From the NCBI RefSeq assembly GCF_023242475.1, contig NZ_JALJFG010000001.1, forward strand, positions 62,001 through 126,000: 64,000 nucleotides of DNA. Reading direction: 5' to 3'. Both the position numbers and the translations under genes were made by a program. The stretch's first letter is position 1. Each line of letters begins with the position of its first letter. Below the pieces are notes generated by a model that was given only the letters and a program-made list of their open reading frames with translations, searched no databases and had not been told where the DNA came from. Shown here one piece after another: positions 48,049 to 64,000 of this stretch. This DNA comes from Pseudomonas sp. MWU15-20650 (GTDB lineage: Bacteria; Pseudomonadota; Gammaproteobacteria; Pseudomonadales; Pseudomonadaceae).

Positions 48049-48051
48049 CGG

Positions 48052-49053
48052 TCAACCGCCGGATATCTGCGACACGCGCGTCGAGGGCGGATAGTAGAAG
48101 ATGTCATAGATCCCGGTGGCGCCCTCCAGACCCTGTTCATCATAAGCAGACAAGCGCACGTGGTAGAACGACGCTTTCAACCCAGTGAAGCTTACTTGTG
48201 GCTTGCTGGAAAAGTTTTCCTGCTTGATGTTCATGAACGCTTTATCGGTAGCGACCTGTGCCCGATAGCGCTGGGCACCCGGCAGTGGCCGCAGGAACAG
48301 GGTCCAGATAGGCGCATCCCCTTTCTGGCCATCCTGGCCCACCAGCGTAGGTGGATCCAGCAGCTCCATCGGCTTGAGATCTCCCTGTTTCTTGAACACC
48401 AACCCTTGGCGAGTCCCCACCTTCACTTCGCCCTCTACCGGGCCGACCACTGGTTTCTTTTTAACCGGCTTAGCGTTGGGCGGCGTTTCGTCTCGATTGA
48501 CCGCCACTTGCCCATTGAGCACTTCGACCACCGATTGTTCGCCATCGTTACGCACACGGAAGTGCGTACCGCGGACACCCAGCACACCCACAGGCGTCAC
48601 GATCTGAAAACGGTCATAGCTGCTGGCACGCTTGATCACATAAGCCTCGACTTGGCCCTGCTCAAGAATAACCTGAGGGATCGCTTGTTCCTCCACCAGG
48701 TGCAAGCGCACCTGGGAACTGGAAGGCAGCACGATCCGCGAGCCATCTCCCAGCAGCAGGCTGACAAATGCCCCAGGGGAGGTTTTCACACTCTCCTGCT
48801 CATCGATCGCCATGCCCTCTATCAAAACGGTTGGCACGCCTTTGTCGTCCAGCTTCCAGGCTTCACCCGTCAGATGCTGGACGACCGCCGGCAATGGCTG
48901 AGCACGGCATAGCAGGTTGTCATCAACGTAGGGAGCACGGGGAAGGGCAGGGCGAGCAACCGCAGGTAAACTGACGGCACCCAGCGTAACGATCAGGCCA
49001 GAACCCAACAGGGCAGAAAAGAAGGGGCGGTGGGGGCGGAAAAAGAAGGTCAT
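48052..49053 (-). CDS. FecR-domain exported protein
   Basis: A 333-residue protein with a signal peptide (MTFFFRPHRPFF...LPAVARP), a FecR domain (about 60-190, with VSLLLGDGSRIVL, VTPVGVLGVRGTHFRV and EVLNGQVAV) and a C-terminal fibronectin-like region. ATGs at 49062 and 49053 are both possible. It is co-transcribed with the CHASE2 kinase, a frequent partnership in which FecR is expected to sense or modulate in the periplasm. Confidence 0.88.
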   Translation of the reverse strand: MTFFFRPHRPFFSALLGSGLIVTLGAVSLPAVARPALPRAPYVDDNLLCRAQPLPAVVQHLTGEAWKLDDKGVPTVLIEGMAIDEQESVKTSPGAFVSLLLGDGSRIVLPSSSQVRLHLVEEQAIPQVILEQGQVEAYVIKRASSYDRFQIVTPVGVLGVRGTHFRVRNDGEQSVVEVLNGQVAVNRDETPPNAKPVKKKPVVGPVEGEVKVGTRQGLVFKKQGDLKPMELLDPPTLVGQDGQKGDAPIWTLFLRPLPGAQRYRAQVATDKAFMNIKQENFSSKPQVSFTGLKASFYHVRLSAYDEQGLEGATGIYDIFYYPPSTRVSQISGG

Positions 49054-49192
49054 GGCGCTCATCAAGATTCTAGTTCTAATGGTCGTCAGAAAGCGCCTTG
49101 CAGCGGAAGACCTCGGATACCGCCTACGATACCCGATGATGCGTCGCACTCGATAGGCGTAATGTCGGGGTATGGCATCCGCGGAAAAGGAT

Positions 49193-49322
49193 GACACATC
49201 CCTGTGTCGGACCCGTCCACCTGTTCTGGTCCGGGGTAATACATCGAAGCAATATCGTCCTTCTCATCCCTTCGACAACAGTCCGTAGCGAGCCTCGGAC
49301 TGCGGTTGACACATCCTGTGTC
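49193..49322. repeat. Two GACACA-TGTGTC inverted repeats in the divergent leader
   Basis: GACACATCCCTGTGTC at 49193-49208 and GACACATCCTGTGTC at 49308-49322, 115 bases apart. Both are 6-base-arm dyads in the 820-base region between the fecR-like and response-regulator genes. They are candidate operators; no protein can be assigned. Confidence 0.6.
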
Positions 49323-49614: not shown

Positions 49615-49873
49615 CCGTCCCCACAGATTGATCTGCTCCACGACGATCGCTCGTCCTGGCACAGCATAAAGCCTGATTGCCATTGATACTTTTCCTGACG
49701 GTCTCGAGCCGGTATCTTCCCAGCTTGGGTAGTGATGACTTCCAACGGCTTAACGGCCATTTGATATCAGCGTACCTCCGGATCCAGGGGAGTTGAGAAT
49801 TTGGCGATAATTGTTCAGATTCATAGCTGGCCAGGCACAACAGCCGCACTCATCAAGAAGAAAGGACCCTCCC

Positions 49874-50593
49874 ATGCGTGTCGCAATACTGGATGACGAA
49901 CCTGCAGAACTACGGCGGGTAGAACAGACACTGCGACAAATCCCCACCGCCTCGGAACAGCCATGGACGCTGCATTGCTTTGAGAACGGTGAAAGCCTGC
50001 TGCGCCAACTGCGGCGCGAAACATTCGACCTGCTGATCCTCGACTGGCAATTACCCGATCTGAGCGGCCTGGCGCTATTGCGCTGGACCCGTGAGCATAT
50101 GGAAGTACCACCTGCCGCCATCATGCTCACCAGCCGTGATGCCGAGAGCGATATCGTCCAGGCATTGAATAGCGGCGCAGATGACTACGTCAGCAAACCC
50201 TTTCGCCCCAACGAGCTCAAGGCCCGGGTGATAGCGGTCCTACGACGTCATGGCTTGCACAAATCTGCCGCCAGCGAAGTACTTACCTTTAATGACCTGA
50301 CATTCGACGACGCCGAGCTGACCGTCACTCGGGCCGGCAAGCCGATCAGCCTGACCGAACGCGAGTACCGCCTGGCCCGTTGCCTGTTCGCCAACCTGGC
50401 ACGACCGCTGTCCCGTGAATACCTCTATGAGCGGTTCTGGACCCACGAAGAGATGGTCTCATCGCGCCCACTGGATACCCATATCTATCGCCTGCGTAAC
50501 AAGCTGGGGCTAACCGCAGATAGGGGTTGGCAGTTGCTGACGATCTACGGGTATGGGTATCGACTGGAGAGCGTGGCGACACCTGAAAGCTGA
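49874..50593 (+). CDS. OmpR-type response regulator
   Basis: A 239-residue response regulator. The receiver domain has D8/D7 acidic residues, phosphoacceptor D57 (LILDWQLP), Ser/Thr in MLTS and Lys in YVSKPFRP. A C-terminal winged helix (about 130-235) has SLTEREYRLA and LDTHIYRLRNKLGL. The ATG at 49874 is chosen for its AAGGA site. It is the presumed partner of the CHASE2 kinase encoded divergently. A terminator follows at 50655. Confidence 0.92.
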   Translation: MRVAILDDEPAELRRVEQTLRQIPTASEQPWTLHCFENGESLLRQLRRETFDLLILDWQLPDLSGLALLRWTREHMEVPPAAIMLTSRDAESDIVQALNSGADDYVSKPFRPNELKARVIAVLRRHGLHKSAASEVLTFNDLTFDDAELTVTRAGKPISLTEREYRLARCLFANLARPLSREYLYERFWTHEEMVSSRPLDTHIYRLRNKLGLTADRGWQLLTIYGYGYRLESVATPES

Positions 50594-50654: not shown

Positions 50655-50683
50655 AAAGGCCAACGCTAAGCGTTGGCCTTTTA
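50655..50683 (+). terminator. Rho-independent terminator after the response regulator
   Basis: GGCCAACGC/GCGTTGGCC stem with TAA loop flanked by A- and T-runs; good on both strands. Confidence 0.9.
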
Positions 50684-50700
50684 TTTTACTAGCGGGGAAC

Positions 50701-50850
50701 CTGATGTCGATGGGCATATTAAGTGTCATGGCTACCCTAGGTGGAATCAGGGTTCCACGTGGAACATGAGCACGATAACTGTCACATCTGAGCAACAATT
50801 AGTGTCGTACTGCGGACTATTGACCTTATTAAATGTCGTTTTCATAACCA
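50701..50850 (+). repeat. Cluster of TGTCR direct repeats, candidate transposon end
   Basis: Five same-direction copies of TGTCG/TGTCA at 50705, 50724, 50780, 50803 and 50834. Four share the longer form T(A/T)A-N-TGTC(A/G). Such arrays of short direct repeats mark the ends of Tn7/Tn5053-type elements, where they bind the transposase. The true terminus could be any outer copy. Confidence 0.5.
50751..50766. other. parS centromere-like site 2
   Basis: GGTTCCACGTGGAACA, one mismatch from the parS consensus, with a perfect 14-base palindrome at 50752-50765. It lies 145 bases from site 1 and within the TGTCR repeat cluster, so it may be inside the transposon end. Confidence 0.87.
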
Positions 50851-50905
50851 GCATCCTCACCTAATGAAGGAGCTTGCTGGCGGCATCCAAAAAGGAACCG
50901 TTCTG

Positions 50906-53275
50906 CTAGAGCAAGTCCATCGTGGCTAGGGAGTCAGCCATTCGGTAACCCATCGCTTTGTACCCCGCCTGCCGTTTATCCCACATCCTCATCAATGCAG
51001 CATTGCCCGCGTCAACGAAGTCGATCACTCGCACGTCGACCTTATCGGCATGTGATCGATGCAACCGCCCCGCATATTGCTGAAGGATGCCCTTCCATGA
51101 AATGGGCATTGCCAGCACCAGCGTGTCCAACGGCGGATGATCGAAGCCTTCACCTACTAGTTTTCCTGTTGCGAGCAGCACTCGTGGAGCATCAGGGGGA
51201 AGGGACTCAAGCTCATGCATACTGGAAATCCGCTGTTTCTTAGGCACTCGCCCATGAAGCGCGAAAAGGTTATGCACGCGCTGCTTCAATTCTAATTCAA
51301 GGGCATCCACATGTTCCGTCCGCTCCGTTAGCACTAGAATTTTTCGGCCCTCGTTGTACGCCAGCTCAATCTCCGAGACGATTTTAGCTGTCCGCTCAGA
51401 GTCGTCGGCTAGACGCCGAAAAACGTCCTGAATGCCAAAGCCCTCGGGGACCACTATTGGTTTGGGCATCAATCGAGGCACGACAGATAGGTCATGGGGC
51501 GCACTCGCTGGTCGAGCAGCAGAATGTCGGATCGGTCCGCACTGCATGAAAATAATGGGCTGCTGCCCATCTCGGCGCACTGGGGTTGCTGTGAGTCCCA
51601 GTACGTACCGCGCAGTCGCGCTCCTCAGTAGCGCCTCGAATGACACTGCTGATAGGTGATGACACTCATCAACGATGATCTGGCCGTAGTTTTTCACCTG
51701 ATCGCTGATCTCGCCTTTTCGCGATAACGACTGCATTACGGCAATGTCGATGATGCCTGTAAGCTTCGCTTTTCCGCCCCCAAGAGTTCCAACGACACCA
51801 TTCCCGACTCCCAAGAACACCTGCAAGCGCTCTTGCCACTGCCTTAACAGTTCCGTCCGATGCACAAGCACCAACGTGTTAATGCCACGTGCGGCAATCA
51901 ACGCAGCAGCACTCACCGTTTTACCGAAAGCTGTCGGTGCGCAGAGGATACCGGTGTCATGACTTAGCATTGCGCTGACAGCAGCCTCTTGGTCAGAACG
52001 CAGGGTCCCGAGAAAGCTCACGTAGATGGGGTCGCCCGCGAAGCGTTCGTCTTTAAGAATAGGGGTAACCCCGTTTTCCTCTAAAAGCTCCAGCGCAGCA
52101 TCCAAACAGCCACGTGGTAACGCAATATGTTTGGGGAAGTTCTGGGCACAGCCGATAATCCTTGGCTTGTTCCACACTGACATGCGCATGGCCTGAGCTT
52201 TGTAGAACTCAGGATTTTGAAAGGCAGCGAGCCGGACAAGCTGGTTTGCCAATGGCTGTGGCAATTCCGACTTTTCAAAGTAAATTAAGTTAGCCAGCGT
52301 GATGTTGACAGCAGCAGGCAACGGGCATGTCAATTTACGTGATCTCGATTCACGATCTTTCCAAGGTTCTGCATCACCTTCGTCATCGACATAGGCGACC
52401 CCTAGAGGGTCCCGATTACCCATCGCCTGGATAATAACGGGCTGGATATCTTCTGGACTCATGCGCTGAATCGATGCCAGGAAGGCCCATTGATCAGGAT
52501 GAGGCTCAAGCGAGTCGTCTACAAAAACGCTATTGTTTTGGGCCCTGGCCCGCTTTTGTAAAGGGAGCGCGATGAGATTTCCAAAGCCGCCTTTGGGCAT
52601 ATAGTCCTGGTTTGGAAACAGTCGATCATAGGAGCTGAGCGCCAACTGGCGGGTGCGCTCACAGGCATGACTGATGATTGCAGCACCGAGGCGGCGCGCA
52701 TCGCAGGCAGGAACATTACGCTTAAAGAAAATCCAGCCATGAGCCCCTTGGCCTGAGCGCGATATTTCCAGCGCCACCGGGACGTTCAGCTCATGGCATG
52801 ACTGCACAAAAGCTTTGGAATCATCACGCCATTCGGCCTCATCGAAGTCGACTGCCAAAAAATAACAAGTGTCATCAGAGAGTAGGGGGTAGATACCAAC
52901 GACCACTTCGCCCGCCAGATGGCGATAGACCACCTCATCGGTCAGCGGAAGCAGCTGGCGGTTACCGCAGTCGCCACATTTAATTCGTGGCTTCTCACAA
53001 ACGCCAGGCCTCCATTCGTTTGCGCAAGCGGGTGCGTATCCTGATTTGCCTGCCTTGCTTTCCCAGCGGATGGGATAAACGTCCGTCCTACCACGAAACA
53101 AGCTTCGGAATAGGGCAAGCTTTCCATCAGTATCGAGTTGTTGCGAGCGCTCAAGTGGAGCCGCTGGTAGCTTGACCAGCTCATTAGGCAGCCGCCATTC
53201 GATGCCATGAGCATCCAACAAGGCAATCAGCCGTGTATTTTCAGCCTGTAGCTTCGCCACCAGATTTGGGTCCAT
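50906..53275 (-). CDS. AEP primase-SF2 helicase fusion (TOTE-type conflict protein)
   Basis: A 789-residue protein with two enzymatic parts. Residues about 50-290 resemble the archaeo-eukaryotic primase domain of TOTE conflict systems: a Cys-containing segment (IKCGDCGNRQ), FLAVDFDEAEW with the metal Asp residues, and SRSGQGAHGWIFF. Residues about 400-780 are a DEAD/DEAH helicase: Walker A CAPTAFGKTV, DECHH, LTATPVRRDG and QYAGRLHRS. No nuclease domain is visible. The ATG at 53275 follows an in-frame GTG. It is the outermost cargo gene. The defence role is inferred from the family. Confidence 0.85.
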   Translation of the reverse strand: MDPNLVAKLQAENTRLIALLDAHGIEWRLPNELVKLPAAPLERSQQLDTDGKLALFRSLFRGRTDVYPIRWESKAGKSGYAPACANEWRPGVCEKPRIKCGDCGNRQLLPLTDEVVYRHLAGEVVVGIYPLLSDDTCYFLAVDFDEAEWRDDSKAFVQSCHELNVPVALEISRSGQGAHGWIFFKRNVPACDARRLGAAIISHACERTRQLALSSYDRLFPNQDYMPKGGFGNLIALPLQKRARAQNNSVFVDDSLEPHPDQWAFLASIQRMSPEDIQPVIIQAMGNRDPLGVAYVDDEGDAEPWKDRESRSRKLTCPLPAAVNITLANLIYFEKSELPQPLANQLVRLAAFQNPEFYKAQAMRMSVWNKPRIIGCAQNFPKHIALPRGCLDAALELLEENGVTPILKDERFAGDPIYVSFLGTLRSDQEAAVSAMLSHDTGILCAPTAFGKTVSAAALIAARGINTLVLVHRTELLRQWQERLQVFLGVGNGVVGTLGGGKAKLTGIIDIAVMQSLSRKGEISDQVKNYGQIIVDECHHLSAVSFEALLRSATARYVLGLTATPVRRDGQQPIIFMQCGPIRHSAARPASAPHDLSVVPRLMPKPIVVPEGFGIQDVFRRLADDSERTAKIVSEIELAYNEGRKILVLTERTEHVDALELELKQRVHNLFALHGRVPKKQRISSMHELESLPPDAPRVLLATGKLVGEGFDHPPLDTLVLAMPISWKGILQQYAGRLHRSHADKVDVRVIDFVDAGNAALMRMWDKRQAGYKAMGYRMADSLATMDLL

Positions 53276-53482
53276 CACCCGCTTTCAGCCTCTACATCTC
53301 AGGAGAAGACTATAGCCTAACGCTACAATCCTCAGCCCATCAGAAAAATATCGAGACTATCGAACGACTGAGGTTCGGTCATTAAGAACCTCAGGCTGCA
53401 TGGTGATTGGCTTTAAAATTACGGCAGAATCCATATTCGCTGAAGCAGGTAGTGACACACAAGTTATGAGACACGACTGACG

Positions 53483-54295
53483 TTAAGACTCATCATAAAT
53501 AGCCGTGTATTCAGTACCCTTCGGCTTGATCCACAATTTGTTATTTGTCCGCCCCCGGTTCAACCGTCCAAAAACCAAGAAATGCATGCCCTCAAGCTCC
53601 GTCCACTTGGCACGGTGATAGTCTAGAAAAGCCTTGCAGACCTCCTTGCCGACGATCACGCTGACGTTTTCTTTATCTCCGGTATTGATCCATCGAGATC
53701 CATCCTTGGACTCGCGGGTATCCTGAATATCACCCCAAAAACCTCTGAGCTGACCCACGTGCTCTTCCGTGATGTCAGAAAAATTCACGAACAAATCACG
53801 CGCTCGAAACTCACCTACTTCGGGCAACTCAATGGTTTGATCTGAATGTCTGAACGCTTCGGAATATATTAAATTCTTCAAAATTGGTCGGAGTCGGCGC
53901 TTAGATATTGCTCGCTTGCTCCCCCCAAGGCCAACGTACCTGCCACCAGAACCACCGCCTGTCCCACCCAACACTGGGTCACCGTTCACGTTCTCCGCCG
54001 CACCGTAACGGAGGTCTAGAACGATGCGATCACCAGGGTTACGTAACATGTCCTGATCATCGCCGCCGCCCTCACCGCGTTCAGACTCAGGTGCAGCGAA
54101 TGTGCAATTCAGATGAGGACGAGCCCGGAAATGCGGTCCTTGTCCGCTTCGCGCCTCTTTGACAAAAATTGCTCGGGTACCACACTTGATACAAACGAGG
54201 TGTCGCCGTTTATTCGCTAGTTCAGAAGGGGGAAGTTTGGCGAACTTTGCAGCGGGATATTCAGCGCCGTCCACGATACATCTTGCTATGTCCAT
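53483..54295 (-). CDS. CoiA-like zinc-finger protein, function unknown
   Basis: A 270-residue protein. The N-terminal 65 residues (HLVCIKCGTRAIFVKE...HFRARPHLNCTF) resemble the zinc-binding N-terminus of CoiA-like proteins. A Gly-rich linker (about 108-122, GGTGGGSGGRYVGLGG) leads to an unrecognised C-terminal domain (about 130-270). GAAGG lies 8 bases before the ATG. It is 200 bases upstream of the helicase gene on the same strand, so the two may act together; this is inference only. Confidence 0.7.
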   Translation of the reverse strand: MDIARCIVDGAEYPAAKFAKLPPSELANKRRHLVCIKCGTRAIFVKEARSGQGPHFRARPHLNCTFAAPESERGEGGGDDQDMLRNPGDRIVLDLRYGAAENVNGDPVLGGTGGGSGGRYVGLGGSKRAISKRRLRPILKNLIYSEAFRHSDQTIELPEVGEFRARDLFVNFSDITEEHVGQLRGFWGDIQDTRESKDGSRWINTGDKENVSVIVGKEVCKAFLDYHRAKWTELEGMHFLVFGRLNRGRTNNKLWIKPKGTEYTAIYDES

Positions 54296-54380
54296 AACAA
54301 TGCCTTCAGCTAGAGCCCTATATGCAGACGCATCAGGACAATAATGTGTCCTCAGATTTGCTCGTCTGAATCCGTCACAC

Positions 54381-54411
54381 TAAAAAAGCCCCTAAATCCA
54401 GGGGCCCTAAT
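54381..54411 (-). terminator. Rho-independent terminator after yegP-like gene
   Basis: On the minus strand a CCCCTGG-ATTT-AGGGG hairpin is followed by GCTTTTTTAG, 17 bases after the YegP-like stop. Confidence 0.85.
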
Positions 54412-54427
54412 GAGAACCCGACTGGGT

Positions 54428-54760
54428 TCAGGTCAAATCTACTACCGGCGCCGTTGGCGCATATGCCTTCACCGCAGTAATGCCGGCATCACGCGATTGA
54501 GTTGTTGTGTAGGTTTCGCTTACTCCTATCACCTGGTTATTGCTCGCAGTTAACGTGAAGTAGTACTGGTAATTCGTGGAGATTAGTTTTTTATAGTAAT
54601 TGTCATAAGGCGAGTGAATTTTTACTGACTGGATACCGTTCTGGCAGTTGGCTTTAGTCGTATACCCCTCACTGGCAAGGATTTTTTCTCCATTCGGAGC
54701 CTTGAGGTGGAAGTAATATTGTCGATTGCTACCCAGAAAAATCTCAAATTTTGCACTCAT
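54428..54760 (-). CDS. YegP family protein (tandem DUF1508)
   Basis: A 110-residue protein made of two copies of the DUF1508 unit: first FEIFLGSNRQYYFHLKAPNGEKILASEGYT, second KLISTNYQYYFTLTASNNQVIGVSETYT. The family includes E. coli YegP; function unknown. AAGGAG precedes the ATG at 54760, which lies 11 bases after the stop of the small upstream gene. Confidence 0.9.
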   Translation of the reverse strand: MSAKFEIFLGSNRQYYFHLKAPNGEKILASEGYTTKANCQNGIQSVKIHSPYDNYYKKLISTNYQYYFTLTASNNQVIGVSETYTTTQSRDAGITAVKAYAPTAPVVDLT

Positions 54761-54771
54761 TTTCGTACTCC

Positions 54772-54945
54772 TTATTTCTCTTTGCGGACGCCCTTGAACG
54801 GCGTTTTGTCCGAGGTTTTTACGTCCATGAACTGGCCAGTTTCCGAATCTCGTTTCACCCAATGCCCTGAAGGCGTCTGAGTTTGAGAGCGATCCCGGAC
54901 AGCGCCTTTACGGTGCCCATCACCTGCTGGAGGGTTTGTAGCCAT
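54772..54945 (-). CDS. Small basic conserved-looking protein
   Basis: A 57-residue, highly charged protein with the pattern GDGHRKGAVRDRSQ and KTPFKGVRKE. It resembles small uncharacterised proteins that recur beside yegP-like genes, recalled from general knowledge. The ATG at 54945 or an upstream one at 54957 could be the start. Probably co-transcribed with the YegP-like gene. Function unknown. Confidence 0.65.
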   Translation of the reverse strand: MATNPPAGDGHRKGAVRDRSQTQTPSGHWVKRDSETGQFMDVKTSDKTPFKGVRKEK

Positions 54946-55051
54946 GTCGATCACCATTCTGATTAATTGATCCAGTTTAACCAGGTATTAAACGAACAAC
55001 CCCCTGGCTTATGGGAAAGACTACTCGCTGATTCTGATTGTGTAAAGCTGT

Positions 55052-55612
55052 TTAAGCAGATTCGCCTATCGCGTGGTACACGTACTCGATACCGCCTGAC
55101 TCAGCGGTTTCTTCTGCTCTAAGAATGTAGCCCTGATCCAGCAATTTTTTTAACTTGGTACTGGCGTTAGGCACTGAAATTTCGAGTGTTTCAGCCACCT
55201 TAGCCGCAGTGACGGAGCGTTTGGAAAGCACGTAATGTAAAAGCTCTTTCGCGGAGGAACTGATCTCAGGACCAATGACCTCGAAATTATCCCCATCCCA
55301 GACGGTGAGAGGCTGGTCTTTTGCGTGGGCCGCATAGCTCCAGTTATCGAGTAAATCCCGATTTTTTACATCTTTTAGAAAAAAACCGCGCTCCCCTTTA
55401 AAATGCTTGGCAACAGCAACCACACTTTCCCTAGGAAAGGATGCATCCGTCGCCTCTATGTCAGCCAGAGAGATACCAAACAAGGCGTACTGAGGATGAG
55501 CCTCAACGACGTCAAGGAGTTTACGAAAGGTGGCTTTCCCTTGGACGTTGCCAAAGGGATGGTCATCGTCGGTGAGTCCACCGAGATTGACGATATAAGA
55601 TTTCTGATTCAT
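55052..55612 (-). CDS. STAS-like (DUF4325-type) protein with C-terminal winged helix
   Basis: A 186-residue protein. The N-terminal half (about 1-110: ATDASFPRESVVAVAKHF, DLLDNWSYAAHAKDQPLTVWDG) resembles STAS-like DUF4325 domains. The C-terminal half (about 118-180: SVTAAKVAETLEISVPNASTKLKKLLDQGYI) is a winged helix of the ArsR/MarR type. Its ATG overlaps the stop of the GHKL ATPase gene by 4 bases, so the two are made together. A regulator or switch is likely; no function is established. Confidence 0.75.
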   Translation of the reverse strand: MNQKSYIVNLGGLTDDDHPFGNVQGKATFRKLLDVVEAHPQYALFGISLADIEATDASFPRESVVAVAKHFKGERGFFLKDVKNRDLLDNWSYAAHAKDQPLTVWDGDNFEVIGPEISSSAKELLHYVLSKRSVTAAKVAETLEISVPNASTKLKKLLDQGYILRAEETAESGGIEYVYHAIGESA

Positions 55613-56718
55613 TTTTTCAGTTTAACCAGAGTCGCCTGACTGTCAATCAAGAATTCAAAGCAGATGTGCGTTCCGAGCAAGGAGGGCATACCTACGCGAT
55701 AGCTACTCGTCAGCTTGCCTTCTGTATAAACCATGATTAGCTCGAAATTCTGTTGTCGGATAGAGACCGTCGCGTTGTAGTTCGCTGCCACATCGCCACT
55801 GCGCTTAAGGCCTAGGCCACGACCATCATCACTTGAGCTGGAGATCTGACCCTGCTGGAACACCTGTAGCACAAGCTCGGGACCCGCTTCGGGCTGGGAA
55901 AAATCGAGCTTTCCAAAAATAGCTGGATACTTTTCCGCCAGTACCGGCTGGAGACTCCCAACGATACCAACCCCACTGTCGGATATTACCGTCTGGATTT
56001 TTCCACCCTTTGGGTAGTGCTGGAGTGCTGCGAAGCCTGGGATTTGAGACCGCGCATGGTCTCGCACGTTGCCAAATAGCTCAGAAATAACGGTGAATGC
56101 GGATTGTGAGTAACGCTCACCTGCACAGCTGACAAGGCTATTCTTCAAACGTTTGGGGATAGTCTCATCGGGTAACAGGTGGTCAATCGACGCCAGCTCA
56201 ACCACACCATTATTATTACCATGATGTGCTTTGGCTGCCGACCACTTCGGCCTGTTTGGAAGAACGTTTACTTTGCCATCCAAATGATCAAAGAACCCGA
56301 GCCGATTAAAGTAGGTCAGCGTTGTTTTGCACGCGCTGAAATCAATCGATACCGACTTATTCAACATTACCAACTGATTGCACAACGCTAAAATACGTGC
56401 GGCTGCGTCAATCATGATTTTGCAGCCCAAGGGCACAACAAATTCGACCACCGAGCACTCAAGATCCAATGGTGAACCGGTGGCCGCCAGCGACTCCTCG
56501 AAGGAAGCGCTCCCAACCCAGGCACCCGATTTAAGAGCGATTGTCAGCTTTCCAGAGTTCACCAATGACCAGCAACTGTTTTCATCCTGAATAAAAACCT
56601 CACGTTGTCCATAGAGGATAGGGTTCACCACAGACTTCTGCGTGCCGAGATGGCGGGCAATTTCTTTTGCCATGGCGCCTGGGTTCAATCTCAGAAACGT
56701 CTCAATATCAGCAATCAT
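55609..56718 (-). CDS. GHKL ATPase with N-terminal winged helix
   Basis: A 369-residue protein. An N-terminal winged-helix segment (about 1-50, LRLNPGAMAKEIARHLGTQKS) is followed by a STAS-like middle region (VSIDFSAC...LTYFNRLGFFDHL) and a C-terminal GHKL ATPase: N box SELFGNVRDHA, G1 ISDSGVGI, G2 DDGRGLGLKRS. No histidine-kinase phosphoacceptor helix is seen. The ATG at 56718 is chosen; a TTG lies at 56730. It forms a two-gene unit with the STAS-like/winged-helix gene. Such units could act as a signalling switch in defence; this is inference. Confidence 0.8.
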   Translation of the reverse strand: MIADIETFLRLNPGAMAKEIARHLGTQKSVVNPILYGQREVFIQDENSCWSLVNSGKLTIALKSGAWVGSASFEESLAATGSPLDLECSVVEFVVPLGCKIMIDAAARILALCNQLVMLNKSVSIDFSACKTTLTYFNRLGFFDHLDGKVNVLPNRPKWSAAKAHHGNNNGVVELASIDHLLPDETIPKRLKNSLVSCAGERYSQSAFTVISELFGNVRDHARSQIPGFAALQHYPKGGKIQTVISDSGVGIVGSLQPVLAEKYPAIFGKLDFSQPEAGPELVLQVFQQGQISSSSDDGRGLGLKRSGDVAANYNATVSIRQQNFELIMVYTEGKLTSSYRVGMPSLLGTHICFEFLIDSQATLVKLKK

Positions 56719-56904
56719 CAATAGACTCAATCACCTAATTTCCTTGGCTCTCAGCCTTCCTAGCCGAGTTGTACGGCGAGCACGGGCAGACACTATTCAT
56801 GCGTCACCAGACACCGTCCGCGTACTATAGTGGCCTATCGACACCAAGACAAAGAATTAACCGAGCGACCCTCGCCCCTCATCCACCGACCTTGGAAATC
56901 CAGC

Positions 56905-57408
56905 ATGCTTTCAGAACAATTTGATCTTAGCCCACACGAGAACCGTTGGTTTACTTGGGCAGAAGTCGAGGAATGTTTCTGGCCAGGTCAAGGAGGTCGA
57001 TCTCACGCCGTCAATCCAAGCCTGGCGAACGTCAGAAATGCAGGAGGTATTTACTGTATTGCTTGGGGCACTACCAGCAAGATGCCCACTCCAGATGAAC
57101 AGCAGGTGCAATACATCGGACAAACAAAAAATTTTAAAGCGCGTATGGCTCAGTTTGCGTCGTCAGCGGGTATTTTTTGGGATGACCGTTACGACGGGCA
57201 TTCGGCTGCGTGGCGCTGGCCACAAGGAGCGACTGCAAAAATGATGATCGCGTTTTTTCCATTGTCAGCGACTGAACCTGATCACATGAATACTGGACGC
57301 TTATTTTGGTACGAGGCATTGGCGATCAATTTGTACTTCATTAAACATGACAACCGTCTGCCCCCACTCAATGTTGTGAAGAGCCCTATCGCAGTCGAAC
57401 TCAGTTAG
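56905..57408 (+). CDS. GIY-YIG nuclease
   Basis: A 167-residue protein with all family catalytic landmarks: GIYCIAW, VQYIGQTKNFKARM (the conserved Arg in KAR), a Glu in FWYEALAIN and an Asn in PPLNVV. It is a single-domain endonuclease without a recognisable DNA-binding module. A GTG at 56830 is in frame, but the ATG at 56905 has a TTGGAAA site. It is divergent from the GHKL pair with 186 bases between, so the three genes could form one locus. Confidence 0.82.
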   Translation: MLSEQFDLSPHENRWFTWAEVEECFWPGQGGRSHAVNPSLANVRNAGGIYCIAWGTTSKMPTPDEQQVQYIGQTKNFKARMAQFASSAGIFWDDRYDGHSAAWRWPQGATAKMMIAFFPLSATEPDHMNTGRLFWYEALAINLYFIKHDNRLPPLNVVKSPIAVELS

Positions 57409-57487
57409 AGACTGATTTTATGAGATTCAGGGCCCCTTGCTGCAATCGAGTCGTGGCCCACAGACAAAGCGGCTGCCTTCGCCGCAT

Positions 57488-58624
57488 CTATTTAGGAATT
57501 ACAATTTCCTCATCTAATACATCCACCACACCCAGTTTGAGCGGATCAATCCAGTCCGCTTTGGCACGCCCCCAACGGAGTAGTTCTCGCTGCTCCACAG
57601 TCAGCTCGTACTGTTCGACACCTTGTTCCAGTGCATTGAGGTACTCACGGATGGCCTGCGCACGCCGCCAGTTCTGCGCATCGATTTCAAGCTTCGCCAG
57701 CCGCTGCTCTTCCGCGTCGTATTGGTGTTTTCGCTCCAGCGCAATTTCGCGAACTCGCTGACGTTCGGCATCCTCAATCGCCTGACGCTCATTACGGACC
57801 AGTAAGCCGATCGCTCTGGTGGCCATCAGGCCAATAAGTTTGTTGAGCTGTTGCTCCACCGAGCGACGATCCGAATCCGTGATTTTCCCCCCAAAACCTT
57901 CGTCTGCCATAACCTGTAGCCGCCCGGACGGCGTGAACTGCCATTTTGGCCAGTAACTCCATCCGCCCTTGGCCTTTGCAGTTAACTGGGCAGCTGAGGG
58001 CACGTAATCCGAACGCAACGACGGTTCGTAAAGGCGTAAACGCAATGCATCGCCAAACATCACGACCTCGATCGGCTGTTTCCCTTGTTGAACGGAATAC
58101 CCGCGCTTCTCTAATGCTTTCAACAGCGTGTCCGCTACTCTTAATGCGCGACTTTGCAGCGCGGCAGATACCGAAATATTCAGCCCATTACCGTGCGTCT
58201 GCGGCATTCCGCGCTTATCAATAATCGGTCGAACTAAAGCTTCGCGAGCAGCCGCGACAACGGGATGCCACACCTTGATGCGCTCCGGTACCACAATCTG
58301 GTTTTCGGGCTGCTGCTCAAAGGTCAGTACTTGCTGAAGACGGCTGTCCACCACTTCAGTGGCCTGAGCCTGAGGAGAGGGCTGCCCGACAGGGCGATAC
58401 AAATAACCGGGGTGGCCAGTGTATTCGCGCAGCTTGGGGCGCGGGGACACGCGCTTACCCACCTTGACCTTGGCCCAATGACCCCGTGGCGGCGTGGGGA
58501 TTTGCAGGCGTGAGCAGAGCTTTTTCAGCCCGACGTCGGACAGGCCGTAGCGCGGCGCGACCGCCTGCACCGGCTCGGACCAGACTTCATCCAGCAGCTT
58601 TGCCCGGTCATAGCGTTCCACCAT
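57488..58624 (-). CDS. Uncharacterised mobile-element protein with charged coiled coil
   Basis: A 378-residue protein. The N-terminal segment (YDRAKLLDEVWSEPVQAVAPRYGLSDVGLKKLCSRLQIP) looks like a small helix-turn-helix followed by PRGHWAKVKVGKR. A charged helical region lies near residues 260-340 (RNERQAIEDAERQRVREIALERKHQYDAEEQRLAKLE). GAGGATGAG precedes the ATG. The family was not recognised; from memory similar proteins are carried on mobile elements. It is the last gene of the row that follows tniQ. Confidence 0.65.
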   Translation of the reverse strand: MVERYDRAKLLDEVWSEPVQAVAPRYGLSDVGLKKLCSRLQIPTPPRGHWAKVKVGKRVSPRPKLREYTGHPGYLYRPVGQPSPQAQATEVVDSRLQQVLTFEQQPENQIVVPERIKVWHPVVAAAREALVRPIIDKRGMPQTHGNGLNISVSAALQSRALRVADTLLKALEKRGYSVQQGKQPIEVVMFGDALRLRLYEPSLRSDYVPSAAQLTAKAKGGWSYWPKWQFTPSGRLQVMADEGFGGKITDSDRRSVEQQLNKLIGLMATRAIGLLVRNERQAIEDAERQRVREIALERKHQYDAEEQRLAKLEIDAQNWRRAQAIREYLNALEQGVEQYELTVEQRELLRWGRAKADWIDPLKLGVVDVLDEEIVIPK

Positions 58625-58716
58625 TTAACTCATCCTCGATTATGCGCAGCGCGGTTCGACTCCCTATAGGTCTGCGCTGAGCACCACTCAACAAGCCCCC
58701 GGTGCCCACACGGCCA

Positions 58717-58941
58717 TCAACCCAGCGATTCCCAGCCCTTTACCCGCGAGTCTTCTGGTGTATCGGCGAGCAGTTGCTCCAGACTCAGCTTGTTGCGACC
58801 CGGCCGCACGATGAGCATGTCCTGACCGACCCTGATGCATTCCACCACAGAACCCGTCTTCAGGTGGTTCTGCGCCACAAATTCATCCGGTAAGCTGAGG
58901 ACCAGGGCCCCCTTGAAGCGACGCAGTACCAGCGTATTCAT
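58717..58941 (-). CDS. AbrB/MazE-fold antitoxin-like protein
   Basis: A 74-residue swapped-hairpin AbrB-type protein (LRRFKGALVLSLPDEFVAQNHLKTGSVVECIRVGQDMLIV) with the antitoxin-like tail KLSLEQLLAD. It resembles PemI/ChpS antitoxins, yet no PemK/MazF toxin is adjacent. GAGG lies 9 bases upstream of the ATG at 58941. It may be an orphan antitoxin or a repressor of the element. Confidence 0.78.
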   Translation of the reverse strand: MNTLVLRRFKGALVLSLPDEFVAQNHLKTGSVVECIRVGQDMLIVRPGRNKLSLEQLLADTPEDSRVKGWESLG

Positions 58942-59055
58942 CAGGATGTCCTCAGGTTCATTACAACTGTTCGGTGGCAGAAGGGGCAGATCGACCCACA
59001 GCTGAACCCAGTGCAATTCGCAGTAGGCCGTTTGAAGGACGATCCGAATTCGCTG

Positions 59056-59493
59056 TCAACTCAGGACGCCATGTTCGACTTGTCCAATCAACGTTAGCAG
59101 CGCCTGTCTCTCGACGGCCGTGGCCAGCATGTCCTTTGGACGACGCCCGCCGAGTCCATACTGCGGCGTGTCCATCCACCCATTGGCCATGCCGGTATCA
59201 CCCTCGAAGAGACAGCTCGCGTGCACCAGCACCAAAGCAATTTGAAACAGTTGATCGCTTTCACGGCTATTAAAGCGCCCATGCTGGCGTCGGCGCCGCA
59301 ACGTTGAGGGGGACATCGACAGCCATGCTCTCAGTGCAGGGGACGTCAGCTGAAACACACTGATCAGGTGATCCCACACAGCAAAGGGGAAGCCGAGGCG
59401 AACCAAGCCCAGCAGGTGCTCACCTTGCGAAGGAAGGCCCAAACGCTGCCAATAGGCATCCTTCATCTGGCCGTCATGGGCTAACAGGCTCAT
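59056..59493 (-). CDS. MbcA/ParS/Xre-type antitoxin-like protein
   Basis: A 145-residue protein: an N-terminal helical region with Xre-like LSMSPSTLRRRRQHGRF (about 75-95), and the C-terminal toxin-binding domain of MbcA/ParS antitoxins (GMANGWMDTPQYGLGGRRPKDMLATAVERQALLTLIGQVEHGVLS). A RES toxin normally follows; none is present. GGAGG precedes the ATG at 59493. It follows the 112-residue protein by 31 bases, which could be an unconventional partner. Confidence 0.85.
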   Translation of the reverse strand: MSLLAHDGQMKDAYWQRLGLPSQGEHLLGLVRLGFPFAVWDHLISVFQLTSPALRAWLSMSPSTLRRRRQHGRFNSRESDQLFQIALVLVHASCLFEGDTGMANGWMDTPQYGLGGRRPKDMLATAVERQALLTLIGQVEHGVLS

Positions 59494-59524
59494 CGCGTTC
59501 CTCCGAGCGGTAGAACACCTCAAT

Positions 59525-59863
59525 TCAATGCAGGCAGTATCGCGAGCCCAGCCGCGCAGCGGTGCTGAATAAGCTCAGCAAATGCGTCAGGGATTTGCGT
59601 CCTCCGTGAGTGTGAAAATTCACGATGAGAAAGCGCTCGCGGTCGCTTGTTTCAATCAAATACCGATGCTGATACTCCAGCACTTGGCTAATTGGCTCCG
59701 AAAGGATCAATGCCCCATCACGGTACTCCAAGCTCTTGTAAACCGTACCTATCACGCAATAACTGCTGATATAGGCATCGAGGAGGTAGCCGGTGATCCA
59801 CTGCTCGGGGTAACTTTCCAGCAGGGCGCTGAGCAACATTCGCACTTTTCGGTCGGTCAGCAT
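59525..59863 (-). CDS. Small paralogous protein A, function unknown
   Basis: A 112-residue protein. It shares with the protein at 60011-60367 the pattern TGYL....CVG.VY, followed by a W/Y-rich stretch and F.IV.F..GGR.SL. GGAGGTGA lies before the ATG at 59863. It lies directly upstream of the MbcA-like gene and could be its partner. Not recognised. Confidence 0.6.
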   Translation of the reverse strand: MLTDRKVRMLLSALLESYPEQWITGYLLDAYISSYCVIGTVYKSLEYRDGALILSEPISQVLEYQHRYLIETSDRERFLIVNFHTHGGRKSLTHLLSLFSTAARLGSRYCLH

Positions 59864-59940
59864 TGATTCACCTCCACCTCGGGATGGACGCATCGATGGA
59901 TGCCGAGTCAGCCAACGGAATGCACCTGACAGTCTCGACT

Positions 59941-60011
59941 GAGGCTGCGTAAACCTGTTTTTTTGCGTAAACCGGTGCGGTTTACGTAAAACAAAAGGTT
60001 TACGCGGCCTC
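59941..60011. repeat. 71-bp nested palindrome with four GCGTAAACC motifs
   Basis: Two GCGTAAACC copies (59947-59955, 59965-59973) face two complements (GGTTTACGT at 59979-59987, GGTTTACGC at 59997-60005). Both pairs and an outer GAGGC/GCCTC centre on 59976, giving an almost fully paired 33-bp-arm hairpin. Within each arm the copies are 18 bases apart. It fills the gap between the two paralogous genes. No known element was recognised. Confidence 0.85.
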
Positions 60012-60367
60012 TACTGGCAGTGGCGTGCCGTGGGATGAACCCCTTTCAGCGAAATCTTGAGAAATGCGTCCAATGATCGACGGCCACCCTCTCGGGCAAA
60101 ACTGACGATCACATAAAAGCTGCCGCTCGCTGTAATGCAGATCCAATGACGTTCCCGCTCTTCGACGCGATAAATGTCCGACGTTCGAATCGTGTGTCCG
60201 TCACGCAGCCAACCATCCGGTCTCGCTTTCGCATGACCGTACACTTGCCCGACACAACAACAGGCAACCATCCGCACGTTGATCAGATAACCCGTCACGG
60301 GAGCCTCAAACTCCGTGCGCCTGGCGCGCGCCAGCTGGCGTAAAGCGTAATGACTGACAGGAGCCAT
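60011..60367 (-). CDS. Small paralogous protein B, function unknown
   Basis: A 118-residue protein, paralogue of the one at 59525-59863: VTGYLINVRMVACCCVGQVYG and FYVIVSFAREGGRRSLDAFLKI match its conserved blocks. GGAGGTAA precedes the ATG at 60367. Its stop codon lies at the edge of the 71-bp palindrome. It follows tniQ on the same strand with a 137-base gap. Not recognised. Confidence 0.6.
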   Translation of the reverse strand: MAPVSHYALRQLARARRTEFEAPVTGYLINVRMVACCCVGQVYGHAKARPDGWLRDGHTIRTSDIYRVEERERHWICITASGSFYVIVSFAREGGRRSLDAFLKISLKGVHPTARHCQ

Positions 60368-60504
60368 TGCTTACCTCCAGAACCCGATTGAAGCAGTGCC
60401 TCGCCAGCCATCACACTCACTGCGAAGGCGGGCACACTTAGGATCGATAGGCGCACATGGCTCAGTTACTTCGCCACTCAACGCTCGCGCCGTACAACCA
60501 GCTC

Positions 60505-62349
60505 TTATTGCAAAACAGGAGAGGTACTGAAACGCTCTCGTTTGCTGGGCTGGGCTGCCCTGACCAAATCGTCGATGCGCAGCAATACGCCGCGTCGAGT
60601 ACCCTGGCCGGTTCTTGGTGCGAGTGCAGGTTCAACCCCGCCGGGTACCAATCCTCGCAACATCCAAATGGATTTCGTATCGTTGCGGCGCGCCAAGTCG
60701 GCTAGCACGGCAAACTCAGAGGTGAACTCCAACAACCCGGACAGCGGAATCACCCAATGCAATTTGCCATTGACTGACTCTCTATGCGCCTTCAAAAAAC
60801 CGGTCTCAATCCATTCCTTAATCGACTCATGCTTCCAGCCGCGAAGACGCGCGAGCTGGGTAATGCTCAACACCGGTTCGAGCTGTTCCTCTTCAAAACA
60901 GCCTTTGATTTCAGCCATGTCGTAGCGCAGACCCGCGATGCCCGGCACTTCAGCAATAACCGCCACAGGAAGAATTTCCTGGTGCAGAATTTTTTGCAGG
61001 ACCTGACAAATGTGCGTATCCGGGATGCCGTTTTTGCTTGAGATGCCTTGCAGTCCCACCCAGGCTGACTCGTCAACCGCTCGTGATTGAACGCCCTTAT
61101 GCAGGCGTTTCACCAATGTATCGACATCGACAGCCAGAAATTCGGCGGATACCAGCGAGGGACGTTGGGCCTTGGTCTTTCTATCCAATGCACCGGATTG
61201 CATGAGCTTTTCAAATACCACTTTGCTAACACCTAGTCGACGTCGAACCTCGGTCGCGGTCAGGTAATGCAAGCGATCTTGGCGCACTTTCTCGACGACG
61301 TCCCGGTGAATGGAAACGAATCGATTTTTGCCGTTAACAGTGACTTTACCCCGGATTTCGCCAGTGGTCACCGCGCTACGAATCAATTGCGAGCCAATTC
61401 CAATCAGACGTCCAGCTTCTTCCGAAGTCAGCCAACACTTGTCTTTTAGGTGTTGCGGATCGATGGTGCTGAGCCGCAGGTTAAGGTGGCCGTCAAAGTT
61501 ATGGGTCAGATGCTGGACCAGCGCTTGCCGAATACAGTCATACGCCGGATCGGTGTAGCGCTGATGCAACTCGCGGTACCAGCCCCCCAATCGTTTGGCC
61601 AAACCTGGCCCTTCAGTGCTGGCCAGGCGGCTGCGCAGAGCCTCATCGAAACGCGTCGGCCATTGCAACAGCAGGCCAAAACCGGTGTGCGCCTCTACCA
61701 TCATTTCATCGGCCGTCGACTTGCCCCGTGAACGACTCTGACCGGTGAACTGCTTGCCGAGCAAACACAACAAATCGACCAGATCGGCAGGAGGCAGACC
61801 ACTGCGCCAAGCCGGTGGCAGCGAGTGTCGAGCCTGATGCTCTACACCCAGCATGAGCGCTGAAAGGGCCAGCGTCTGCTCGCTGGCTGTGACGCCAGTA
61901 TTTTGCGCGTAAGGCTGGCCACAATCGCAGCGTTCAAGCTGACCGAGCGCATTGAAGCCTTGGCCACAGGCGACGCAGCTCGACACCAACTGAATGTCGT
62001 GATGAGGGCAGGCTGTCATCAGCACATGGCCCCAACCGATGCGTTGATAAGGATGCTGTGCAATACACCGGGGGCATACCTTGTGACCCTCACGGATCTG
62101 ATATTTGGGGCGAAGCATGACGTTGCAACTGTCTGGAGCAGGTTGGCGAACGGCCAACTGGGCAGCATCGAGGTGCAACATCTCCGCCAGCCGGGCAAGC
62201 TCCGTGTCACTGTAGGCCAACCGGGATTTCACCCCGAAGCTGGCCAAGAAGGCTTTAAGGCTTGGGGCCAGGTTACGCTCACTGACCCGTCGCAGAAAAC
62301 CGTGCAGAGACTCATCGGAATACGGTTGCAGACGCACGATCAAGCTCAT
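60505..62349 (-). CDS. TniQ/TnsD-family target-selection protein
   Basis: A 614-residue protein. The N-terminal TniQ domain carries a zinc finger, CPRCIAQHPYQRIGWGHVL...CPHHDIQLVSSCVACG (about residues 90-140). The C-terminal half has three helix-turn-helix segments: WLTSEEAGRLIGIG, YLTATEVRRRLGVSK and SITQLARLRGWKHES. Such long TniQ proteins (TnsD type) bind a specific chromosomal target. The start overlaps the upstream TnsC stop (ATGA). It selects the insertion site by analogy with Tn7 TnsD. Confidence 0.88.
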   Translation of the reverse strand: MSLIVRLQPYSDESLHGFLRRVSERNLAPSLKAFLASFGVKSRLAYSDTELARLAEMLHLDAAQLAVRQPAPDSCNVMLRPKYQIREGHKVCPRCIAQHPYQRIGWGHVLMTACPHHDIQLVSSCVACGQGFNALGQLERCDCGQPYAQNTGVTASEQTLALSALMLGVEHQARHSLPPAWRSGLPPADLVDLLCLLGKQFTGQSRSRGKSTADEMMVEAHTGFGLLLQWPTRFDEALRSRLASTEGPGLAKRLGGWYRELHQRYTDPAYDCIRQALVQHLTHNFDGHLNLRLSTIDPQHLKDKCWLTSEEAGRLIGIGSQLIRSAVTTGEIRGKVTVNGKNRFVSIHRDVVEKVRQDRLHYLTATEVRRRLGVSKVVFEKLMQSGALDRKTKAQRPSLVSAEFLAVDVDTLVKRLHKGVQSRAVDESAWVGLQGISSKNGIPDTHICQVLQKILHQEILPVAVIAEVPGIAGLRYDMAEIKGCFEEEQLEPVLSITQLARLRGWKHESIKEWIETGFLKAHRESVNGKLHWVIPLSGLLEFTSEFAVLADLARRNDTKSIWMLRGLVPGGVEPALAPRTGQGTRRGVLLRIDDLVRAAQPSKRERFSTSPVLQ

Positions 62350-63290
62350 GACGCCACTCCCTTTGCGACGGACCGGGGCACAGACATGTGTGCCTCGGTC
62401 AACATTCTGGCGAACCCTTGCCCCAGTAGACTTTCTACAGGGGGGTTGCCTTCAAAGGGATTAAATTCGAGAAAGCGGGTGTTGATTGCTTCCGCGTAGG
62501 CGCGGACCAAGGTCTGCTCCGTGATGCGCTGATTCGTTGCCAAATGCTCTACGGCATGGAGCAGCTTCACCAGCATGCCAATGCGCCCCAAGCAGGCGGC
62601 ATAGACGCGTCTGGCATAGTCCAAGTCTGTCGCATCAGGAATGACCCAGCCAGCATCACTAAATGCTTCAGTCAATGACAACAGGGCACGGCGAAACTCC
62701 AATTGCTCGCCTTCGTGATTCCAGTTGTAGGGACGAAACTCGAACACGGCTTCAGCGCGGTCGCGCAGTTGTTCATTGCGGATCAAGACCTCGTTTGCCA
62801 AAGGCAATCCAGTGAGCACCAAGGTCAGCCCCATCTCTTCGCCGAGCACCTTCAACCAGTCCGCCGCTTCCCGGGCAGCAGTGCGAGAACCACGCTCGGC
62901 AAAATGTTGCATTTCATCGAAGACCAGGACTCTCGTCCCGGTAATCTTGATCAACTCGCAAGCCATGCGAGTCAGCTCTTCAGAGCTTGAACGGTTATAG
63001 CGCGGGGAACCCAAACCCTCTAGCAAGGCAATAGGCAAGGAGCGACGCGTTGGATTTACCGGCGTTACGACGCGCACAATGGGCATACGTCGAATGCCGT
63101 CGACCACTTTTGGCACGTTGTCGGCCATAACCGTTTTCACCAGTTCGCTCTTGCCGACCCGGGTCGGTCCAAAGATCGGCAGGATCAAGGATTCGCCGGC
63201 CAGACCACGCTTGACCGTAGACTCCAAACGGCTCAGTGCCTGGCTGAAGGTTGCGTGCTCGATCAACTCGTATTTCACCAGAGCACTCAT
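62346..63290 (-). CDS. TnsC/TniB-family AAA+ transposition ATPase
   Basis: A 314-residue AAA+ regulator that links target choice to the transposase. Walker A is GPTRVGKSEL near residue 45 and Walker B is LVFDEMQHF near residue 130. The length is short compared with Tn7 TnsC and closer to TniB of Tn5053. It overlaps both neighbours by 4 bases (ATGA), forming a coupled unit TnsB-TnsC-TniQ. Confidence 0.92.
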   Translation of the reverse strand: MSALVKYELIEHATFSQALSRLESTVKRGLAGESLILPIFGPTRVGKSELVKTVMADNVPKVVDGIRRMPIVRVVTPVNPTRRSLPIALLEGLGSPRYNRSSSEELTRMACELIKITGTRVLVFDEMQHFAERGSRTAAREAADWLKVLGEEMGLTLVLTGLPLANEVLIRNEQLRDRAEAVFEFRPYNWNHEGEQLEFRRALLSLTEAFSDAGWVIPDATDLDYARRVYAACLGRIGMLVKLLHAVEHLATNQRITEQTLVRAYAEAINTRFLEFNPFEGNPPVESLLGQGFARMLTEAHMSVPRSVAKGVAS

Positions 63291-64000
63291 TGTGCGTCTC
63301 CTTTAACGGATTTCTTGCGACGCGGCGCGGCTGAGAGCACTGCTGTCGTAGACGGAGTGTCAAGAATCGTCTCGACTGCCGGACGAGACGTCTCTTGGCG
63401 CAAGGTCTTGAACCGCTCTTCTTCACGCTCCCGCCCTCGCGCAGCATGATTCTTATCTTTCATACTTCCACCGACCGCCCGGTCACGACCTTCTTTCAGC
63501 ATCTGCATATCAGCGATTTGGTAGTCCTCGCCGGACAACTGGGCATCGCTTTTCCCGAGGGCGCGGCGAATAGTGCGCGCCTCTTCAAAGCCGATCAAAG
63601 GCATCCCAGGCCGCTTGTTGTACGCTTCGATCAACACATCGGCATCGTCGGGATCAACCACAAAAATCGAGCGACAATCGAGCGGATTGAGCCGTACCTT
63701 AACCTTGGTTTTTTGCCCCCGGCGCTGATACAGCTTGCTCAACTCGAAACTGTTGTATTTCATGGTGTCGTGACACACACCCTCCCGACCCAACGTTTTT
63801 TCACAGGTGTGATAACGCAGACAAGCATTCCTGAACTCCACAGGATCTGGCGGTGGCATCACTGGATGTTGCCTCTTCAACAACTCCATGGCCCGTGCCG
63901 GCGAGCAGCCAGGTTCAAAGCGGTGCTCCAACCGTTGAAGTGGGGTTTGCATGTACACGTCCGCTACCCACTTGATGATCAAAGCCTCAAGCTCCACGAC
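63287..64000 (-). CDS. Mu/TnsB-type transposase, C-terminal part
   Basis: A partial gene whose frame runs off the window; about 237 residues are visible. The Mu-transposase C-terminal domain is clear: EKTLGREGVCHDTMKYNSFELSKL, then VRLNPLDCRSIFVVDPDD. A basic tail rich in Lys and Arg ends the protein and is expected to contact TnsC. The DDE catalytic residues lie outside the window. It reads leftwards into TnsC with a 4-base overlap. Confidence 0.9.
   Translation of the reverse strand, partial: VVELEALIIKWVADVYMQTPLQRLEHRFEPGCSPARAMELLKRQHPVMPPPDPVEFRNACLRYHTCEKTLGREGVCHDTMKYNSFELSKLYQRRGQKTKVKVRLNPLDCRSIFVVDPDDADVLIEAYNKRPGMPLIGFEEARTIRRALGKSDAQLSGEDYQIADMQMLKEGRDRAVGGSMKDKNHAARGREREEERFKTLRQETSRPAVETILDTPSTTAVLSAAPRRKKSVKGDAQ

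Follow-up and report, generated by a model that had tools for sequence, protein, structure and literature searches.

The window analysed here, a 64,000-nucleotide stretch of Pseudomonas sp. MWU15-20650 DNA, ends inside a Tn7-like element that spans window position 50705 to full position 84743 and measures 34,039 bp ('full' coordinates carry the window numbering on past 64000), with its right end 20.7 kb past the window edge (Table 1). The ends are of the TGT...ACA type and match at 21 of 22 terminal bases. Four TnsB-type repeats occupy the left end and two the right end, and in a regular-expression scan 15 of the 21 overlapping matches to such repeats in the element fell within 400 bp of its ends. 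The element is flanked by a 5-bp target duplication, the right copy of which directly adjoins the stop codon of gyrB, and its GC content is 0.520 vs 0.580 in 5 kb of the left flank. These paired ends and the duplication, together with a tns core, support the original prediction of a Tn7-like transposon near gyrB. The start that it proposed coincides to the base with that of the left end, the terminal repeats that it called for are found at both ends, and the target that it placed near the gyrB 3' end is borne out, gyrB being the far-end neighbour with its stop adjoining the duplication. Extending the sequence past 64 kb, as it had suggested, revealed tnsA and the whole of tnsB, then the right end with its copy of the 5-bp duplication and, beside it, the neighbouring gene. 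Its extent of 50705-64000 (13 kb) was, however, too short for an element of 34 kb. On the left flank, the backbone beside the response regulator (45745-49197) encodes a host CHASE2 histidine kinase and a FecR-type protein.

Table 1. Features of the element and its flanks, in window numbering ('full' where this is carried past the window edge).
Feature	Position	Strand	Remarks
Host response regulator, left flank	49811-50593	+	Pfam Response_reg, Trans_reg_C; gene next to gyrB in six relatives with an empty site
Native gyrB terminator hairpin, parted from gyrB by the element	50658-50678	.	GGCCAACG-type stem
Target duplication CCTGA, left copy	50700-50704	.	Right copy full 84744-84748
Left terminal repeat	50705-50727	+	TGTCGATGGGCATATTAAGTGTC
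TnsB-type repeats, left end (four)	50718-50840	+	Starts 50718, 50775, 50798, 50828
AEP-TOTE primase + superfamily 2 helicase	50906-53278	-	Adjoins left end; Pfam AEP-TOTE E 7e-103
Cargo gene	53483-54295	-	No Pfam, PADLOC or NCBIfam match
DUF1508 cargo, two stretches	54428-54862	-	Pfam E 7e-37
Winged-HTH protein	55052-55612	-	Paired with GHKL-like gene; weak MarR/HTH matches
GHKL-like ATPase (suggestive)	55609-56730	-	HATPase_c E 1e-4, under Pfam cut-off
Possible GIY-YIG protein (suggestive)	56830-57408	+	Pfam E 0.03, under cut-off
Recurrent cargo gene	57488-58624	-	Five further group A elements have it, one of them with a match to just 31% of its length
MazE-like antitoxin (suggestive)	58717-59016	-	Pfam E 0.005, under cut-off
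Xre/ParS antitoxin	59056-59523	-	Pfam E 2e-9; NF049845 91.4 bits vs cut-off 90
smA, paralogue of smB	59525-59893	-	
smB, small conserved protein after tniQ	60011-60367	-	In 9/10 group A elements, own included
tniQ, TnsD type, predicted gyrB selector	60505-62349	-	Pfam TniQ E 5e-14
tnsC, TniB-type AAA+ ATPase	62346-63290	-	Pfam TniB E 3e-23
tnsB	63287-64000, on to full 65254	-	C-terminal part inside the window; D, D, E motifs; Pfam Mu-transpos_C E 1e-4
tnsA	full 65251-65979		Beyond the window
Right terminal repeat	full 84721-84743		Reverse complement TGTCGATGGGCACATTAAGTGTC
gyrB, host gene at right flank	full 84749-87166	-	

The core comprises tnsA (242 aa), tnsB (655 aa), tnsC (314 aa) and tniQ (614 aa), joined by successive 4-bp overlaps. 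The TnsB-TnsC-TniQ run on the minus strand had been correctly recognised in the window and is backed by Pfam matches, but the core does not head the cargo from one end, as had been thought: it sits mid-element. TnsB has the DDE residues, TnsA a PD..DAK-type motif and TnsC Walker motifs, which we take to have a catalytic meaning in each protein. TnsA matched its model at E 1e-12, under the curated cut-off of that model, and gave no PDB match at E<=0.01. The nearest PDB matches of TnsB (E 5e-24) and TnsC (E 1e-16) were the corresponding proteins of Tn6677, both from type I-F3 CRISPR-associated transposons (CASTs), and the TniQ profile matched CAST TniQ proteins in the PDB over its N-terminal part. 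TniQ also has conserved cysteines and C-terminal HTH domains, with a Pfam HTH_17 match in the C-terminal part. Its whole-protein structural model is moderate (pLDDT 68) and scores better in the C-terminal part, where small-domain matches to BldC and Xis had E-values that were not significant. Long, HTH-rich C-termini are described as a mark of TnsD proteins in protein-guided insertion in the accessible part of Faure et al. (PMC10293859). Among the proteins scanned, none was recognised as TnsE. The smB gene follows tniQ within 2 kb in the nine group A elements (see below) that carry it, and its product, modelled with confidence (pLDDT 87.5) and without a PDB match at E<=0.001 in a fold search, is a candidate transposition factor.

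That a site-specific recombinase moved the whole region as a genomic island, with the tns cluster as a passenger, would suit the two cargo arms that flank the tns genes, but is scarcely conceivable in view of the 5-bp duplications, the TGT..ACA ends and the TnsB-type repeats clustered at these ends; moreover, no integrase was found among the proteins scanned (window side with Pfam, PADLOC and NCBIfam, right arm with PADLOC and NCBIfam). Direction by a guide RNA as in CASTs, through a hidden guide against gyrB, is very improbable as well. Type I-F3 CAST proteins are indeed the closest solved structures to the core, but PADLOC found no Cas effector in 19 of the 23 called element proteins, exact matches to the terminal 0.3 kb of gyrB did not exceed 12 nt, and the 614-aa TniQ with its C-terminal HTH domains compares with 155-432 aa for the matched CAST TniQ chains.

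We then consider the gyrB site across the genus, where TniQ matches (E<=1e-5) were found in 29 of 398 genomes, own included. In 25 of the 28 other genomes gyrB and tniQ had contig and strand in common, tniQ lying 4.2 to 39.7 kb downstream, and in the remaining three the two genes were on separate contigs. A TGT end was present 4-12 nt past the gyrB stop in all 29, including the three with split contigs. Among the 25 genomes fetched, both ends with exact (5/5) duplications were found in 18, which we call delimited; six had no left end in the stretch fetched and one was unscored. The left-end search ranked terminal-repeat and duplication matches jointly, and this makes the 18 duplications dependent on the search itself; they vary in sequence between elements. 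A pattern made of the gyrB stop and an element-type end matched 58 of the 398 genomes (reversed control, 0/398); 47 of the 58 have 5 or 6 nt between the stop and the end. Because four occupied genomes (G004, G040, G126 and G317) were missed by this pattern, at least 62 of the 398 genomes have such an end; 18 of these 62 occupied sites were delimited and 47 were read for a terminator. Altogether, the gyrB 3' end is a general target of these elements in many species, with a fixed orientation and a position past the stop that is precise almost to the base.

A TniQ alignment gave 13 named loci, 12 from Pseudomonas and the last a distant match in Kiloniella, with no recognisable target gene within reach of its contig. 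A TniQ profile search of 369 class-level genomes had matches in nine, own included: in G504, from another gammaproteobacterial family, tniQ was found on the gyrB contig, downstream of gyrB and on its strand; in G621 it was ~0.6 Mb from gyrB; and in the six others the two genes were on different contigs, where nearness is still possible. G504 (L164, L172, L179) has two adjacent TniQ matches ~17.6 kb downstream of gyrB. As judged from the gyrB-side end only, both G504 and G848 (another genus of the same family as our genome) have an element-like end 3 nt past the gyrB stop. A separate, within-family pattern matched 1 of 99, an undercount since it misses our own genome. A plasmid search returned seven records, all under 60% identity and none a close TniQ, and a second, plasmid-targeting pathway is therefore unsupported.

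To read empty sites, we used the 30 gyrB loci most like our own gyrB, drawn from 59 genomes; six had an element-type end and 24 did not. In all 24 empty sites a terminator begins 17-41 nt past the gyrB stop, in most of them with the GGCCAACG-type stem. When the flanks of our element were joined, they aligned across the junction in 19 of 29 relative loci (24 empty, 5 occupied). Six of these alignments, of ~1.46 kb, run from gyrB into the response regulator, as foreseen in the original prediction for relatives, and the other 13 stop ~50-65 nt past the junction. Insertion thus parts gyrB from its native terminator, which is left beyond the far end of the element.

We read the locus, with a probability of roughly 0.88, as a cut-and-paste Tn7-like transposon (TnsA, TnsB, TnsC, TniQ) with the gyrB 3' end as its attachment site, a putative TniQ selector and a presumed repair of the gyrB terminator. 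The 614-aa TniQ would act as a TnsD-type selector on the conserved DNA that encodes the GyrB C-terminal motif, about RRDFIESNALAV, and TnsC would couple it to TnsA/TnsB. The part proposed for TniQ at the 3' coding end of gyrB is the one that TnsD plays at glmS. Tn7 TnsD binds +23 to +58 from the insertion point, that is, the last 36 bp of glmS (PMC2918618, in the part accessible). Here, the equivalent span is found ~20-55 nt upstream of the last base of the gyrB stop codon, over the codons for roughly RRDFIESNALAV. In these codons, the first two positions are invariant save three (0.98, 0.53 and 0.88) across 58 gyrB tails from 53 genomes, and the G504 host retains RRDFIE.NAL; such conservation, expected at the end of any essential gene, only fits reading by TniQ. 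The geometry of the insertions and the near-identical copies in diverged hosts (see below) suggest both selector binding and active transposition.

Alternatively, the selector or TnsC could recognise the gyrB terminator hairpin, or a local DNA structure past the stop, in place of the coding end. We consider this unlikely: the hairpin does lie near the insertion point in 24/24 empty sites, but insertion occurs at 4-12 nt while the hairpin starts at 17-41 nt, a position that varies by species (across, not within, genomes), and the duplications differ in sequence. Besides, two genomes (G128 and G119) seem to have received a second element after the native hairpin had moved away, the order of events being deduced and the hairpin of the resident element being near.

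The elements can be sorted into two groups, defined by layout and end sequence and not by a tree. Group A comprises 10 delimited elements, own included, with cargo on either side of the core and tnsA 10.0-36.1 kb from the right end. In group B (eight elements), 1.7-2.0 kb separate the right end from the start of the tnsB match. Movement is suggested by six genomes (G045, G072, G077, G217, G236 and G245) that share a 6.9-kb right-end stretch at 99.9-100% identity, when identity between their gyrB genes is 84-96%; not all six have the same bases between stop and element end. Of these six, G236 is the one whose fetched stretch included a left end, and this had an exact duplication. In G128 (L076-L078) and G119 (L112-L113), an apparent further element end lies at, or 2 nt past, the left duplication, suggestive of elements stacked behind a single gyrB stop; the second elements of both genomes are known from these apparent right ends only. 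Tentatively, and with less than even confidence, we picture a large and spreading guild of Tn7-like elements that home to the gyrB stop, with at least two deeply diverged TniQ groups, stacking and terminators evolved for repair, and with smB as a hitherto unrecognised transposition or target-selection factor in group A.

The gyrB-facing end of these elements itself carries a hairpin followed by a T run in 45 of the 47 sites read, and the calls include 25 different 5' arms; the right ends of G099 and G076 fail the terminator detector. In a non-redundant set, 20 of 22 right ends scored, whereas 40 dinucleotide-shuffled rounds gave 1.8 on average and never more than 5, and random internal stretches scored as a terminator in 68 of 1140 cases. 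The best control comes from the far (left) end: the 18 delimited elements have 17 right ends that scored, vs one left end in the gyrB direction and none in the other direction. The right-end stretches often score on the other strand too (14/22 in the non-redundant set, 10/18 in the delimited one), and the hairpins therefore look bidirectional, their direction of use being unproven. By eye, the G848 end shows a hairpin with a T run, and in the G504 end a clear terminator was not seen.

The right-end terminator would replace the displaced native one, such that gyrB mRNA ends stay normal, and it would also keep gyrB transcription out of the element. Such a terminator offers a testable answer to how an element can insert at the stop of an essential gene without harm to its expression. 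It may be, though we lean against it, that the terminator is of use to the element alone, as insulation against gyrB transcription, and brings gyrB no benefit. Indeed, Tn7, whose target gene adjoins its right end, shows there by eye a bulged and weaker hairpin, then TTTTGTT, directly before tnsA, and the tnsB match of group B starts less than 2 kb from the terminator end in 8/8 elements. In group A, however, tnsA is 10.0 kb or more away in 10/10 elements, yet 9 of the 10 right ends score (G099 excepted); the two roles, insulation and gyrB repair, are in any case compatible. The Tn7 hairpin, which was not called by the terminator detector, means that the insulation idea may be general; it weakens the notion, which we had entertained, that right-end terminators are peculiar to the gyrB family. 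According to the title of a reference in PMC2918618, Tn7 inserts into the glmS terminator.

Our preferred reading, a transposon that homes to the gyrB coding end and brings its own terminator, makes the element a close parallel of Tn7, with a cut-and-paste core, a 5-bp duplication, insertion just past an essential gene and a hairpin at the right end; the Tn7 selector is known to read the coding end, which is presumed here. It differs in its short TniB-type TnsC, its mid-element core and the absence of an identified TnsE among the proteins scanned, as well as in its target, gyrB as opposed to glmS, with insertion 4-12 nt past the stop vs ~20 bp in Tn7 (accessible part of PMC2918618). Type I-F3 CASTs such as Tn6677 provide the nearest TnsB, TnsC and TniQ in the PDB, but the gyrB element has a single long TniQ, a gyrB attachment site and no Cas effector in 19 of its 23 proteins. 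GyrB and ParE are paralogues; parE being a TnsD target, a comparison of selectors could show how new target specificities originate. The targeting of parE is known from PMC11406308, in its accessible part.

Defence cargo decoupled from the core, as seen here, is also a property of the Tn7-like transposons of Benler et al. 2021 (PMC8649781), a paper in whose accessible text 'gyrB' occurs 0 times, and 'gyrase' and 'terminator' 0 times in the main text. In P. putida HB3267, a Tn7-like transposon (B479_00025-00140) is reported as strain-specific cargo in the accessible part of PMC4731212, where its target is not discussed; judging from the tag numbers, its first gene would directly follow gene four of the genome, probably gyrB, which would make the site the same. 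The accessible parts of PMC8649781, PMC11406308, PMC10293859, PMC8473136, PMC3056050 and PMC4731212 do not name gyrB as a target, and gyrB serves as a phylogenetic marker in that of PMC12452197. More broadly, the full-text literature searched, with subscription papers and supplementary tables outside it, yielded no description of gyrB as a Tn7-family attachment site, and an earlier mention is possible; within these bounds, the gyrB-homing element is a variant on a known Tn7-like theme at a site for which we found no description. With at least 62 of 398 genomes of the genus concerned, gyrB would stand as a second essential-gene homing site comparable to attTn7, and the element as a candidate protein-guided insertion system for Pseudomonas.

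Among the accessory genes that had been labelled from the window, the primase-helicase and the Xre/ParS antitoxin are solid, but the GHKL, GIY-YIG and MazE labels are only suggestive, their matches being under Pfam cut-offs. The primase-helicase is present in seven of the ten group A elements, own included, and lies within 350 bp of the left end in four of these seven carriers. It matches PADLOC models of CRISPR-associated PrimPol. As regards a TOTE conflict system, a set of TPR, OB, TBP and effector genes (the name is expanded in the accessible part of PMC12458937), the AEP-TOTE domain was matched, and TPR, OB and TBP neighbours were not among the Pfam/NCBIfam matches. In the left arm of six of the nine other group A elements, the primase-helicase is 70-87% identical to ours. 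The GHKL, winged-HTH and DUF1508 block (54428-56730) recurs near the left end of the G099 element at 63-85% identity. Beside the tandem MazE-like and Xre/ParS genes (58717-59523), no toxin was recognised among the window proteins scanned with Pfam and NCBIfam.

The right arm, past the window between tnsA and gyrB, encodes a fused type I methylase-specificity protein, an HTH protein and an antiviral defence locus of the DISARM type, in which PADLOC called drmD, drmMI, drmC, drmB and drmA plus a cytosine methylase; NCBIfam scores for DrmC, DrmB and DrmA are above cut-off. By gene content, this is a class 1 DISARM with an added methylase, class 1 being defined by drmA, drmB and drmC plus drmD and drmMI. 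A truncated DrmA was considered and dropped, the frame being open over 1143 aa. The defence cargo announced in the original prediction thus holds in so far as DISARM is present, but its strongest part lies outside the window and several labels inside it stand on weak matches. With such cargo, the gyrB stop becomes a mapped hot spot for defence genes. The cargo, here the DISARM locus and the primase-helicase, varies from element to element: DrmMI, DrmC, DrmB, DrmA (C-terminal part) and the methylase are found in our element alone among the 18 delimited (E<=1e-8), and a DrmD-like protein, 29% identical, occurs in one other of the 18.
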